A stretch of 26,077 nt of DNA from a virus, in IMG/VR virus record IMGVR_UViG_3300020578_000376, positions 1 through 26,077 of that record, one strand, 5' to 3'. Below the pieces are notes generated by a model. It saw only the letters and a list, made by a program, of their open reading frames with translations, had not been told where the DNA came from and searched no databases. A program made the position numbers and the translations under genes. Shown piece after piece: positions 12,470 to 17,562 of the stretch; within the stretch, counting starts at the first letter, position 1; each line of letters begins with the position of its first letter.

Positions 12470-14938
12470 CTATGGATTATTTACAAACTTTCCACCAAGA
12501 ACATATGCTCGTAAATCTGGTCCATTTTCTATTCTAAGAATAACTGGCTGTTCTTTAGATTTTTCACCTGTAGCTTTATTTTTATCGCTTCTTAAAGAAT
12601 TTATTGCCTGTACCAACGCATCCTGATCTACTGATTTAGCACTTGCTTGTGCAATATAATATTTTTCAGCAGCAACAACAAATTCTTTGGCAGGTTTTAA
12701 GCTTTGTTCATTAACTGTACTACCTGTTTTTATTAATTCATTAACTGTTTGAGTTTTGTTTATTTCACTAATAGATTTTAGAGTATTAACTCTTGCATTA
12801 AATGAAGCATCTTCAGGAATTAATTTTATTGCATCAACTATCTCTCCAACGGCAGTCTTAATTGATTTCAAATTCTCTAAATTAATTGCCCTAGTAGTTA
12901 ATTCAGTTACAGCGGTTATCATTTTAGCAACACCCTCAGTAGCCATTTTTATACTATATCCAATTGATAATATGACTGCTGCGATTAATCCTAAACCTAT
13001 TGCACCAAAAGTTCCTGCTTTTCCAATAATTAGAATTGCAGCTGCTAATGGTACAGCGGCACTAACTATTACATAAGTAGCGATGGCAAAAGCAGCACTA
13101 AAAGCTATAACTGCTGTGGCAGCTGCCCAACCATTCTCTTTTAAACCAGCAAATGCAAGAACTATCTGAGCGATACCCCAACCAGCTAATGCTATTGCAC
13201 CACCGATTGATAAGAAAACGAATCCAAGAGCCATTAAACCACCAGCTGATAAGGTAGCAGCGCCGCCAATTTCTGTTATTGCTGCTGATACTACGGGAGC
13301 TTCGGCAGCCAATTCAACACTAGAAGTGATAGCAGTTCTTGATAAAAGCATTAAAGCTAATCTTGTAGTTGCAAGAAATTGAGTAAACTTAGCAAAAGAA
13401 AAAGCTATAGCTATAACAACAGCAATTGCCGTTGTCCAACCGGGAGATTCAGACAATAATTCAGCTATCCATTTTATTGCTTTTGCTAGTGGTTCAGCGG
13501 CAATTGCTAATTTACTGAACGCTAATTCTAATTGCCTTGTGGTAGAAGCAACTTTCATTTGTGCATCTTCTAGTTCTTTTTGCGTTGCTGCTTGTGCTTC
13601 CATAGCTTTTTGATCTTCTATTGAAAGTTCTTTAAATAATTTGCTAGCTTCGTTAACATCTTTTATTCCAAGAGAAGCAGCAATAGCTTTTTTCTCAAAT
13701 CTATCTAACGAATCCCAATTTTTTCCTGATGCTTCGAAAGCTTGTTTTAATAAATCAACACGCTCACTTTCAGTAGCATTCAGCATTTCTACGCTATTTA
13801 AATAAGTTCCACCTAATATAGCATTTAATTTTCCTGCCTTATCGGCTGCTCCTTCAAACGTATCAAATCCTTCACCGATAATACCTAACAGCGTAGTCAT
13901 CTCAATTCCAAGAGCTTTTGATTGTTTTTGTAAATCAAAAAATACTTCTTTTGATTTCATGCCATGACTAGCCAAAGCGGGAAGAGTAGCACTAAAATCT
14001 TTAAATGCTTTTGATGCGGAAATTCCTAATCCAATAGCAACGGTTGTTATTCTATCACTTAACTCCTTAAGTTGCTTGTCATTCATCCCTAATGATCTAG
14101 ATAAATCATTAAATAATTTACCTGTCATTTCGGCACTAACACCTAGATTTTCCATTTTGGCAGCATGTTGAGCTAAATCTTTTTGCGCTGGAGCGCTTAA
14201 AGCAGAAAATCTAGACATATTTTCAAAAAGAGCGGCAGTAGCTTTGCCCATCTCTCTATAACCAATAGCATATTTTTCAACACCTGAAAAAGATTCTTTA
14301 TTAATTAATCCAACCTTGCCCGTTGCTTTTGCTAAGGATTCATTTGTTTCAACCATTTCTTTAACTAGAGAGCCAATACCGGCAGCTATACCTTGCATTG
14401 AACGCATTTGAGTTATTTGCTTAGTATAACCCCCAGAAATAGCAGATAGGGCATTTTCAATAGTATCCCATGTTTGTTTTATTTTTTGTTGAGCCTCTTT
14501 TTGTCTTTCTAACTCGGCAGTTTGAACTCTATATCTTTTTATTAATTCATCGGCATCTTTTAATCTTTTTTCCTCATCTTCGGATAATTGTTGCCCAAGT
14601 TCCTTTTTAAGATTTAAATATTTATAGTCTAATAAAGTATATTCATATTGAGCCTTTTTTACTCTTTCGGAATCAGTTTCTGCTTTGAGTATCTCTCCTA
14701 AAATGCCTAATTCTTTTTCTATATCCTTTAATTGTTTTTCTTTTAATTGACGAGTTTCTTTGGCTAAATCTAAACGTGCTTGCTCGATTCTTAAGCTGTC
14801 ATTTAAAACACGTAATTCTTCTAAATATATTGGCTTTAGATCTTTTGCTGCTACTAGATAAGCCTGTTTAGCTTTTACTATTTTTTCTTCAATCTCTTTT
14901 ATTTGATCACTGGTTTCTGGTGTTTTCTCATCAGCCAT
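12470..14938 (-). CDS. Tail tape measure protein
   Basis: An 822-residue tape measure protein, the role gp29 plays in T4: it runs through the tail tube and sets its length. Residues 1-160 are almost pure charged heptads (coiled coil), 160-480 are long amphipathic helices with Ala/Gly/Ser/Lys bias, and about 500-665 is a run of hydrophobic Ala/Ile/Gly helices (for example TTAIAVVIAIAFSFAKFTQF) that look like membrane segments, as is common in tape measures that reach the host membrane. The C-terminus is soluble. It is the longest helical gene between the tube genes and the baseplate genes. It starts with a good AGGAA site, behind a terminator and a putative late promoter. It lies directly downstream of the gp26/frameshift pair, as tape measures follow chaperone genes. 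Confidence 0.85.
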   Translation of the reverse strand: MADEKTPETSDQIKEIEEKIVKAKQAYLVAAKDLKPIYLEELRVLNDSLRIEQARLDLAKETRQLKEKQLKDIEKELGILGEILKAETDSERVKKAQYEYTLLDYKYLNLKKELGQQLSEDEEKRLKDADELIKRYRVQTAELERQKEAQQKIKQTWDTIENALSAISGGYTKQITQMRSMQGIAAGIGSLVKEMVETNESLAKATGKVGLINKESFSGVEKYAIGYREMGKATAALFENMSRFSALSAPAQKDLAQHAAKMENLGVSAEMTGKLFNDLSRSLGMNDKQLKELSDRITTVAIGLGISASKAFKDFSATLPALASHGMKSKEVFFDLQKQSKALGIEMTTLLGIIGEGFDTFEGAADKAGKLNAILGGTYLNSVEMLNATESERVDLLKQAFEASGKNWDSLDRFEKKAIAASLGIKDVNEASKLFKELSIEDQKAMEAQAATQKELEDAQMKVASTTRQLELAFSKLAIAAEPLAKAIKWIAELLSESPGWTTAIAVVIAIAFSFAKFTQFLATTRLALMLLSRTAITSSVELAAEAPVVSAAITEIGGAATLSAGGLMALGFVFLSIGGAIALAGWGIAQIVLAFAGLKENGWAAATAVIAFSAAFAIATYVIVSAAVPLAAAILIIGKAGTFGAIGLGLIAAVILSIGYSIKMATEGVAKMITAVTELTTRAINLENLKSIKTAVGEIVDAIKLIPEDASFNARVNTLKSISEINKTQTVNELIKTGSTVNEQSLKPAKEFVVAAEKYYIAQASAKSVDQDALVQAINSLRSDKNKATGEKSKEQPVILRIENGPDLRAYVLGGKFVNNP

Positions 14939-14973: not shown

Positions 14974-15008
14974 AAATAAAAAGAGCGAGAAAACTTTGTT
15001 TCTCGCTC
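14974..15008 (-). terminator. Rho-independent terminator after the gp26 frameshift extension
   Basis: On the minus strand GAGCGAGAAA and TTTCTCGCTC form a 10-bp stem (14983-15008) around a short loop, followed by CTTTTTATTT-type U-rich sequence. It begins six bases after the TAA (15014-15016) of the extension frame, so it closes the neck/tube unit right where the extended product ends, which itself supports that frame being coding. Confidence 0.88.
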
Positions 15009-15013
15009 AATAA

Positions 15014-15187
15014 TTACTTCTTTTTAAAGGAATCCGCTTCGGCTTTTAATTGCTCTAGTAATTTTTCAACAAACCATTTTCTTAAACCAACTGGTAGGTT
15101 ATAACTCTCAAAAAGAGAAAAACCACCATAATATTTTAAATAAAAAAATTGTTCATAAACATTTTGTTGATATTCATTACTTAAACC
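15014..15187 (-). CDS. Start-less C-terminal extension frame of the gp26-like gene (frameshift product)
   Basis: A 57-codon frame, +1 relative to the gp26-like gene, reading GLSNEYQQNV, YEQFFYLKYYGGFSLFESYN, LPVGLRKWFVEKLLEQL and a lysine-rich end. It has the aromatic and Leu composition of real protein and stops just before the terminator. It holds no ATG, GTG, TTG, CTG or ATN codon, and a TAG closes the frame immediately upstream of a T7 run (15188-15194). The only way in is therefore a shift between that TAG and the gp26 stop, on TTT-TTT-T. A +1 slip, or a -2 slip adding one Phe, gives a fusion of about 345 aa. Position between tube and tape measure genes matches G/GT-type tail assembly chaperones. 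Confidence 0.75.
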   Translation of the reverse strand, partial: GLSNEYQQNVYEQFFYLKYYGGFSLFESYNLPVGLRKWFVEKLLEQLKAEADSFKKK

Positions 15188-15197
15188 AAAAAAAGTC
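15177..15197 (-). promoter_or_regulatory. Probable programmed frameshift site (T7 run)
   Basis: The gp26-like gene ends GAC-TTT-TTT-TGG-TTT-AAG-TAA. The seven T residues (15188-15194) let the Phe tRNA re-pair perfectly after +1 or -2 movement, while a Trp codon follows in the zero frame. The target frame opens only at the codon before this run and has no start codon, so shifting is confined to these seven codons. Confidence 0.65.
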
Positions 15198-16052
15198 TAC
15201 CGTCAGCGGTACCTCCAATTCCCCTTCAAATTCACAACTTTTGCAAGTATAAGAATGACGCATATCTATACCTCTAACTAAATTTTGATGCATATTACGC
15301 AAATATTTAGAATCACCTGCTGGCATGGCGGAAATAGCATTTTCAACTGTTGGTCTATCCGTAACATCATTAATAGAAACAACAATTAATTTTAATTGTT
15401 CCATTAATAAAGAATCGCCTTCAAGGCCAGTTTTCTTGGTTTCGGAAAGCTTTAATAAATGTTTTTCTTCTCTTCCAGTGATTGCTCTACACTTTAAATT
15501 CCATTTTGTTTTTGGAAGTAGAACGCTGAAAAAACCATTTTCATCTACAGAAACAGGTTCTTGCTCATTCTCTGAGTCTAATTTCTCTAAAAGGTCAAAT
15601 GAGCTTTTTCCTTTTTGCATGCAAGATGGACAAGTAACTACAGTAGAATACTCAGAACCATAAGCAGATATTCTAGCAGCTAAAATAATCGCTCCACGAT
15701 CTTCGGCAGTTAAAGAATCGGTATTTATTCGTTTATCTACTACTAAAGATTGAATCAATTTATCTAATGCCACCCCCTTTTTTAATAGATTTCGTGAAGT
15801 AAGAATATCTTCTTCTTTTGCAGTCATTTGCTTTATTTCAAGTGTATCTTTATCCCGCAAAGGATGATTTACAGCATAAAATTTTCCTTTTGATGGCAAA
15901 GAGACAAATTCGGTTGGAACTATAAAGCTAAGTGGAGAACCGTTACCTACTGTAGTGTTTTCTGCTTGTTCTAATTGTTGTGGAAAATCTGAATCTTGGC
16001 GAAGAGTTTGTGCTCCTACGCTTCCTGCTAAACGATCTAAATTGTTACGCAT
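15177..16052 (-). CDS. gp26: gp26-like baseplate hub/tail assembly protein with zinc ribbon
   Basis: A 291-residue protein of the T4 gp26 baseplate family. Residues 49-56 (FVSLPSKG) and 70-95 (TLEIKQMTAKEEDILTSRNL, then LKKGV) match the family core 'L-P-S-K-G ... K-Q-M-T-A-K-E-E-D-I-L', followed by DRGAIILAARISAYG (118-132). Two Cys pairs, C141-x2-C144 and C270-x2-C273, should form one zinc ribbon. The central part (150-260) is helical with an insert. It ends VPLTVDFFWFK. In T4 gp26 is needed for hub assembly. Here it lies between tube and tape measure genes, the place of tail assembly chaperones, and its last codons hold the T7 run leading into the extension frame, so I infer that both a short and an extended form are made. 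AGG precedes the ATG. Confidence 0.82.
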   Translation of the reverse strand: MRNNLDRLAGSVGAQTLRQDSDFPQQLEQAENTTVGNGSPLSFIVPTEFVSLPSKGKFYAVNHPLRDKDTLEIKQMTAKEEDILTSRNLLKKGVALDKLIQSLVVDKRINTDSLTAEDRGAIILAARISAYGSEYSTVVTCPSCMQKGKSSFDLLEKLDSENEQEPVSVDENGFFSVLLPKTKWNLKCRAITGREEKHLLKLSETKKTGLEGDSLLMEQLKLIVVSINDVTDRPTVENAISAMPAGDSKYLRNMHQNLVRGIDMRHSYTCKSCEFEGELEVPLTVDFFWFK

Positions 16053-16111: not shown

Positions 16112-16942
16112 TTATTCTTCAGTTTGCGGTAAACCGGGAGAACCGGCCCAGAGCGTTTGATCGCCACCATTATAACCAAATGGCGTCTGCACTTCTCTTC
16201 CAGAATATCCTTCTCTTAATTTTCTTTTCTCATCTTGTGTTTGATAGCCAAATTTAACATCTTTTTCATCAAATTTGCTTGGGCTTACAGTGGATAGAGA
16301 GGCATTATCATATGTTATTGTAAAACTTATATCAACAAATTCATCACTAGCGTAAGAAAGAGTTCCATAATTAACGTTAGATATAAATGAGTTAGTTAAT
16401 TTCCATGTTTCTATTGTATTACCATTAGAATCAACTTGAATTAATTGAATACCTAAACAAGAATTTCTTTTAGCCACACTATACCCTAATCTTGGTGAGT
16501 TATGACCAGTAGAATATAAAAGATCATTCATAGTACTAGCTAAAGATTGAAAAAAATATTCAGAAGTAAATGAAGTTACATTTTCTCTTAGAGTAGCTAC
16601 TGTTCCTCCTTCAAAATCTTGTTGCCTAGAAACAGTTGAGTCATTGCCATAATTATCTTTAATAACACCAAAAAGTGTTTTTTTAGATGAAAATGGTTCA
16701 ATTTTATCAGACCTACCCATAGCAGAAACCATTTTTACAGTTATTGGTTTCCAAACGACATTTTTAGGATAATTAAAAGTTTGATTTAATAAAAGAAGAG
16801 GCACAGTATCTATATTATATTCTGGTTTTGAGCATTCCTTTAAAGCAAACCTATAAGCGTCTAATTCGGCATCGCCAAATAAAATATACCACCGGTTTTG
16901 CCGCATTGGTTCTTTGAGAGTAATATCAGTCCAAAATGACAT
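16112..16942 (-). CDS. Second tail tube-like protein (gp19 paralogue)
   Basis: A 276-residue paralogue of the preceding 196-aa tube protein. Both open with MSFW, share an R-x-x-R-W-Y-x-x-F strand, an 'A-L-K-x-x-x-K-P' helix, an 'L-N-x-x-F-x-Y-P' turn, and a C-terminal core (IQLIQVDSNGNTIETWKLTN here, IDIKQVNADGQVIERWVLNN there) followed by N-V-x-[FY]-G-[ST]-L-x-Y-A. This copy has about 35 extra residues in the middle and a hydrophilic 45-residue tail rich in Gly, Lys and Glu. In T4, gp19, gp48 and gp54 are related in fold, and tail terminators also share it, so this could be a second tube subunit, a specialised end-ring, or a decorated tube form. Weak ribosome site. Confidence 0.75.
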   Translation of the reverse strand: MSFWTDITLKEPMRQNRWYILFGDAELDAYRFALKECSKPEYNIDTVPLLLLNQTFNYPKNVVWKPITVKMVSAMGRSDKIEPFSSKKTLFGVIKDNYGNDSTVSRQQDFEGGTVATLRENVTSFTSEYFFQSLASTMNDLLYSTGHNSPRLGYSVAKRNSCLGIQLIQVDSNGNTIETWKLTNSFISNVNYGTLSYASDEFVDISFTITYDNASLSTVSPSKFDEKDVKFGYQTQDEKRKLREGYSGREVQTPFGYNGGDQTLWAGSPGLPQTEE

Positions 16943-16971: not shown

Positions 16972-17562
16972 TTATGGAGAAGGTACAGGGAAATCAGGAT
17001 TTACAGCTGAATCATCTGGTTCGTTGGCAACTAATGCGGTAGCAGGATTTGCTAACTGCGCCCAATCATATCTAACAGTACAAACAATTTCTACTATATC
17101 TTCGTTAGCATAATCAAGAGAACCAAATGTTACGTTTGTAAAAAATGGATTGTTTAATACCCATCTTTCTATAACTTGACCATCAGCATTAACTTGTTTA
17201 ATATCTATAGTACGACCAATGGCTCCTGCAAATTTATTTTTGCCGATTGTCGCTACTTGATTAGGAGAATTAACATCTCTCGGAACTCCGTAACCGGCAT
17301 CTAATAATAAATTATTAACCACTTCAGTAGCATCTGGTTGTGTAATAGAAGCAAATGTCATTTGAATCGCTTCCCATTCAAGACGACCGGGATAATAAAA
17401 GCTATGGTTTAAATATTTGTGAGTTATTTCACCAACTTTAGCTTTTGGTTTTTCAACCTTTTTTAAAGCATATTGTAAGCCAGAAATTCCTGCGCCTGTA
17501 AATACAACGTACCATCTATGATTTCTTTTTGGTTCGGGACCAACGACACTCCAAAATGACAT
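16972..17562 (-). CDS. gp19: Tail tube protein (gp19-like)
   Basis: A 196-residue tube protein that polymerises inside the sheath. Features shared with gp19-type tubes are the N-terminal strand HRWYVVFTGAG, the helix LQYALKKVEKPKAKVGE, HSFYYPGRLEWEAIQMTFAS, and the C-terminal pair INVKQ-like strand plus WVLNNPFFTNVTFGSLDYA and a final IVEIVCTVRYDWAQL strand. It is a little longer than T4 gp19 (163 aa), with an extra Pro/Asp tail. It directly follows the sheath gene, as gp19 follows gp18 in T4, with a 65-base gap holding a perfect hairpin, and has an AGGAG site. As the shorter, more gp19-sized of the two paralogues and the one beside the sheath, it is the better candidate for the main tube subunit. 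Confidence 0.85.
   Translation of the reverse strand: MSFWSVVGPEPKRNHRWYVVFTGAGISGLQYALKKVEKPKAKVGEITHKYLNHSFYYPGRLEWEAIQMTFASITQPDATEVVNNLLLDAGYGVPRDVNSPNQVATIGKNKFAGAIGRTIDIKQVNADGQVIERWVLNNPFFTNVTFGSLDYANEDIVEIVCTVRYDWAQLANPATALVANEPDDSAVNPDFPVPSP

Follow-up and report, generated by a model that had tools for sequence, protein, structure and literature searches.

A probable +1 ribosomal frameshift at UUU_Y in the gp26-like tail assembly chaperone gene of Far-T4-type phages

Phage lambda makes a short and a long tail assembly chaperone, G and GT, from a single gene that precedes the tape measure gene, and the long form arises by a -1 shift on GGGAAAG. T4 is regarded as an exception to such G-T frameshifting (Atkins et al. 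2016). A 26,077-nucleotide stretch of viral DNA, referred to here as the window, carries a gp26-like gene of the T4 type whose end is overlapped and continued by an open frame with no start codon of its own. Is this extension a real part of the protein, and if so, by which event and in which direction is it joined to the gp26-like part?

The gp26-like frame, on the minus strand, ends GAC TTT TTT TGG TTT AAG TAA (15197-15177) and includes a run of seven T residues (15194-15188) near its end. The +1 frame over the same bases reads ...TTT TTT GGT TTA AGT AAT GAA TAT... and runs for 57 codons from GGT to AAG (15187-15017) up to a TAA stop (15016-15014), while the -1 frame closes at once at the gene end. 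Neither ATG, GTG, TTG, CTG nor any ATN codon occurs in frame in the extension, and several relatives likewise have no start there. Because a TAG at 15199-15197 blocks the +1 frame, a shift into it must occur 3' of that codon. The T run, the start-less +1 frame and its upstream block had been pointed out in a reading made from the sequence alone, and each of them is found as described; so is the terminator that it placed just past the extension, since a terminator-like hairpin begins at 15008 and the stop ends at 15014. The features are collected in Table 1. The chaperone gene sits between the tail tube gene and the tape measure gene, the latter placed by position and synteny: the isolates have the order sheath, tube, chaperone, tape measure, and the syntenic gene is annotated as tape measure in immuto 2-6A, SP-15 and LIS04. 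Sequence similarity of the presumed tape measure protein to the Mel-JY01 and immuto genes is weak or absent.

Table 1. Features of the chaperone locus (positions in the window)
Feature	Position	Strand	Remarks
TAC-N, gp26-like tail assembly chaperone (putative), short form	15177..16052	-	291 aa; 0-frame stop TAA at 15179-15177
TAC-C, +1-frame C-terminal extension	15014..15187	-	57 codons + stop; same register in 79 relatives
Shift site GAC TTT TTT TGG	15186..15197	-	Conserved TTT_Y
TAG closing the +1 frame upstream	15197..15199	-	Read from the sequence
Terminator-like hairpin 3' of TAC-C	14983..15008	-	Pattern scan: stem of 10 bp followed by a T-rich tail
Presumed tape measure protein	12470..14938	-	822 aa; position and size only
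Tail tube (gp19-like) gene just 5' of TAC-N	16112..16942	-	phrog_4542 tail tube, E 7e-17
SD-like GGAGGT	15211..15216	-	17 nt from GGAGG to T run
5' stem-loop TACCG-CTGA-CGGTA directly 5' of the shift site	15198..15211	-	Candidate stimulator; terminator scan and folding

Two other observations on the gene content of the window are recorded here. After the sheath gene, two adjacent and similar genes (16112-16942 and 16972-17562) both begin MSFW, and the first matches the tail tube family, which suggests a duplication of the tube gene. In the replication and repair part, a gene for a UvdE-type UV endonuclease (PF03851; 1413-2342) lies beside RecA/UvsX-like and gp32-like genes.

TAC-N belongs to the family of T4 gp26 and gp51 (PF12322, T4_baseplate; 55.5 bits against a cut-off of 24.5, E 8e-15) and also matches phrog_150 'baseplate hub' (E 3e-13). 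Separate AF2 models were made of TAC-N and TAC-C. The TAC-N model (pLDDT 82.6) resembles gp26/gp51-like viral models, such as the SP-15 baseplate hub (E 1.8e-15); 59 viral models were matched at E <= 0.001, the named ones being mostly baseplate hub (assembly) proteins, and a search of the PDB with the same fold gave no match. The TAC-C model is helical (pLDDT 78.7). As for the phage itself, a Gp23 tree of eight rows separates the window, immuto, Mel-JY01, LR756508 and RM378 from T4 and a cyanophage with split support of 100/100; RM378 is on a long branch, and the position of the window within its group is weakly supported. By this marker, the window falls on the side of the Far-T4 phages (PMC4360716).

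The gp26 neighborhoods of related phages were compared, as had been proposed in the sequence-only reading. We fetched 80 viral contigs encoding relatives of the gp26-like protein, 79 of which include the 3' end of the gene, and all 79 have the extension in the +1 register, at identities down to 51%. They collapse to 57 distinct loci, and two records encode a protein 100% identical to that of the window. In every one of the 57 loci TTT_TGG is invariant, the 0-frame stop follows after 12 or 15 nt, counted from the first base of the slip codon, and the extension, where complete, is 56-91 codons long; the dual-coding junction (FFW/FFGL) is conserved together with the slip codon. The same register is found in 60 of 60 distinct loci of the clade of Flavobacterium phage immuto, with the sites TTT CTT TGG, TTT TTT TGG, TTT CTA TGG or TTT CTT TAC, in the Rhodothermus isolate RM378 (TTT TTT TGG), in the isolate Mel-JY01, which has the arrangement of RM378, in isolates of immuto, and in seven of seven contigs binned in bacterial assemblies. 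Three more distant phages, SP-15, LIS04 and GXN1, appear to be +1 with TTT_Y. Across the wider clade, TTT_Y is present in the shift window of all 142 loci, against 0.48% of codons in the rest of the gene. A TGG after the slip codon is usual and dispensable (TAC and TTC replace it in one locus each, L136 and L284). Thus the +1 extension does follow the site throughout the window's clade, whereas the expectation that it always follows a homopolymer fails, since loci with TTC TTT TGG, TTT CTT TGG or TTT CTA TGG keep the same register. The perfect T7 run is present in the window, but the conserved feature is a TTT with C or T after it. By these site patterns, the rule common to the clade is that tRNA-Phe slips +1 from UUU to UUY.

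Selection acts on the extension as on a protein. Across 28 freshwater-type loci, the extension has a pN/pS of 0.21 when read in the +1 frame; read in the other two it gives 1.00 and 1.66, and the end of TAC-N gives 0.58. By this measure the extension is under purifying selection in the +1 frame only. The presence of the frame in all 79 relatives together with this ratio excludes a chance frame.

The locus is very probably a Far-T4-type tail chaperone gene with a short form and a minor, +1-shifted long form made at UUU_Y. Most ribosomes would terminate at the 0-frame stop and release TAC-N; a minority would slip forward by one base while peptidyl-tRNA-Phe is on the UUU that precedes a pyrimidine (here UUU_UGG), skipping one T. 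The slip would take place at UUU_U, either at 15191-15189 or at 15194-15192, and the product, TAC-NC, would have about 345 aa and the junction ...VDFF-GLSNEY.... By analogy with lambda gpG and gpGT, TAC-N may coat the tape measure protein, and the C-terminal domain of TAC-NC may recruit tube subunits. The earlier proposals of a C-terminal extension on a protein of the gp26 type, encoded immediately before the tape measure position, and of a programmed frameshift that joins it, both hold on the comparative evidence, the latter by the register, the TTT_Y site and the pN/pS values. The sequences themselves show the two frames, their conservation and selection, the register, the site and the protein family; that ribosomes make the shift, how efficiently they do so, and that the product acts as a chaperone are inferred.

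The sequence-only reading had left the shift as +1 or -2, and it is the +1 part that was borne out. If ribosomes shifted by -2 on the T7 run, as is known from phage Mu, one extra Phe would be added (DFFF-GLSNEY), and the sequence of the window by itself permits this. We consider it very improbable: seven window-group loci read GAC TTC TTT TGG and nine loci of the LR756508 group also read TTC TTT TGG, so that two bases back the codon would be UCU, with a T run only four long in the former, and the register is unchanged, as it is at immuto-group sites of the form TTT_C, which have no such run. UCU cannot re-pair with the Phe anticodon, yet the GAC/GGC TTC TTT TGG loci keep the register, and this resolves the ambiguity to +1.

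No better placed is transcriptional slippage, by which RNA polymerase would drop one T so that the fusion is in frame in some mRNAs. The hairpin before the T7 run could favor it; however, loci with TTTT only (TTC TTT TGG) or TTTC keep the arrangement and are too short for known polymerase slippage, and the use of GAC rather than the run-lengthening GAT before the run (55/55 against 15 expected) also counts against it. The codon concerned (window 15195-15197) is GAC, rarely GAA and never GAT in the window group, even though GAT is used more often in general; the missing GAT would be accounted for by selection to keep the T run from growing.

Equally small is the chance that the extension of the window is a separate gene with its own or coupled initiation. 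Such an arrangement does occur nearby: in two loci (L269 and L274) the extension is a separate ORF started by ATG, in another register and with an extra N-terminal stretch of about 25 residues, and in LR756511, where the extension is likewise ATG-started and in another register, the stop of the chaperone and the start of the extension overlap; the marine loci, moreover, have an in-frame ATG 18 nt into the extension. In the window and several relatives, however, ATG, GTG, TTG and near-cognate starts are all absent in frame, a stop lying a few codons 5' of the site shuts the +1 frame, and the dual-coding junction and the slip codon are conserved. An own start codon for the extension is thus a property of these side lineages and not of the window's own clade; L269, L274 and LR756511 look like a third route, in which the C-terminal domain was split off. 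An error of sequencing or assembly, or a decayed gene, is a negligible prospect in spite of the error-prone nature of homopolymer runs, because 57 distinct loci, independently sequenced isolates and homopolymer-free loci all agree in register and the extension is under purifying selection.

In the GenBank record of Mel-JY01 the extension is given its own CDS starting inside the chaperone gene (L083:3264-3500), and in that of immuto 2-6A it is annotated only as a fragment (L085:3333-3443). A +1 frameshift at this site corrects the annotation of the clade, whose GenBank records miss the extension or give it a false start.

What, then, might move the ribosome forward? Synonymous over-conservation was calculated for 90 testable TAC-N columns with the expected codon use taken per locus, the z-scores being descriptive because the sequences share relatedness. 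The six most over-conserved columns all fall in the eight codons that lead up to the slip codon: CCG (49/57 against 7.2 expected), GAG (56/56 against 14.9), GAC (55/55 against 15.1), GTG, GCG and CTG. The slip codon itself is TTT in 57/57 against 39.4 expected; in the extension, no stretch of codons stood out for synonymous over-conservation. The conserved element 5' of the shift site reads TGGAGGTNCCGCTNACNGCGGAC, and GGAGG occupies its position in 54 of the 57 distinct loci, against 2 of 2679 background 12-nt windows. The stem TACCG-CTGA-CGGTA of the window folds at -5.0 kcal/mol, where synonymous randomisations average -0.57 and none of 200 was as stable. Over the 57 loci, the 24 nt immediately 5' of the site reach -4.9 kcal/mol against -2.0 for synonymous randomisations, with 51% of the loci individually significant; at 24 segments farther upstream in TAC-N only 0-12% of loci are significant, so the last 24 nt alone have a marked folding excess. 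The stem-loop exists in two registers and is not kept in every locus, being individually significant in 39% of the freshwater loci and 69% of the marine ones, and the excess is weaker in the immuto group (25% of loci). Base-pair covariation cannot settle its structure because codon constraints fix most of the paired positions. No marked stimulatory structure was found downstream, where 24-nt windows are near background and longer ones only slightly over-folded.

SD elements known to stimulate shifting sit 3 nt upstream of the site for +1 and 9-14 nt upstream for -1, and the 5' stem-loop of T4 gene 60 has been proposed to pull the mRNA 5'-wards (PMC5009743). The 17-nt spacing of the window fits neither the +1 nor the -1 rule, so that neither explains a role for the SD-like element. 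Both this element and the stem-loop may be stimulatory; of the two we would take the stem-loop, as a hypothesis, to be the better candidate for the forward push.

A different solution was found in the cyanophage-type relatives of Sf-FS3. There the extension is in the -1 frame in 56 of 56 distinct loci, after an invariant TTTTTTC, and an SD-like GGAGG lies about 10 nt upstream of the site; the pattern also occurs in the isolates P-RSM4, phiM7, ValKK3, IC12, RL38J1 and phiAS5. As in the window, these phages (Sf-FS3, P-RSM4, phiM7) combine a PF12322 TAC-N with what is likely a homologous extension; the shift, however, is -1 at U_UUU_UUC and comes with little 5' folding excess (15% of loci, mean energies equal), whereas it is +1 in 57/57 window-group and 60/60 immuto-group loci. 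Several isolate records annotate the short -1 ORF as gp51 'baseplate hub assembly catalyst'. The 'gp51' ORFs inspected (P-RSM4, phiM7, Sf-FS3 and Cygsa01) are the -1 frame of gp26, and in the first three this ORF comes after the poly-T site. T4 has genes 26 and 51, both matching PF12322 like the window TAC-N, but as separate genes on opposite strands with no frameshift, while the window has one shifted gene. The family matches gp26 and residues 1-201 of gp51, and gp51 has a further C-terminal part of 48 aa. When the extensions were aligned by hhalign, window and immuto gave 97.5%, immuto and cyanophage 62%, window and cyanophage 29%, and the cyanophage extension and the gp51 C-terminus 89%; the window extension against the gp51 C-terminus directly gave a non-significant 0.3%, so that the link runs via the cyanophage extension. 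These values make it likely that the cyanophage-type and Far-T4 extensions are homologous. The extension family (window 15017-15187) also weakly matches DUF6760 (PF20546; 19 of 34 members, best E 1.6e-4), which might help to find C-terminal chaperone domains in other systems; a DUF6760 search of three bacterial assemblies gave no match.

Among other +1 systems, prfB (release factor 2) also slips onto UUU, and a few prfB species have UUU_U; it differs in using CUU_U with a stop codon and an SD 3 nt upstream, whereas the window has UUU_U followed by UGG. The +1 frameshifts in tail genes of HSTV-2 and Listeria phage PSA concern unrelated genes or hosts, and the slip in PSA takes place at a proline codon.

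Vladimirov, Gautam & Davidson 2022 (Virology 566:9-15) reportedly identified tail assembly chaperone genes in T4-like phages; frameshifting is said there to be conserved in several T4-like groups, with T4 using genes 26 and 51. Later papers state that the short and the long chaperone are encoded by separate genes in some T4-like phages (PMC10885494), and that in TAC-N genes of T4-like phages poly-T stretches are recognised as -1 signals (PMC12846349). The systems so described resemble the window in having a gp26-type TAC-N with an extension reached by a poly-T shift near the gene end, and differ in being reported as -1 where the window is +1 at UUU_Y. Thus the view, also put forward in the sequence-only reading and supported by our comparison, that gp26-type proteins are the tail assembly chaperones of the T4 group is already established and not new, as is the use of frameshifts by some T4-like groups. 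What looks new is the +1 direction together with its 5' element, unless Vladimirov et al. 2022 covers Far-T4 phages.

One homologous chaperone would therefore be provided in three ways: by a +1 shift in Far-T4 phages, by a -1 shift in the cyanophage type and by two genes in T4. A tentative and rather doubtful idea is that the upstream element sets the direction, the Far-T4 stem-loop zipping behind the ribosome and pulling the mRNA 5'-wards to give +1, as proposed for gene 60, and the cyanophage SD at about 10 nt pulling backwards. If this were true, the same two protein domains would be joined by opposite shifts. The family would thus offer a natural experiment on frameshift direction, for which cultured phages (RM378, immuto and Mel-JY01) exist.
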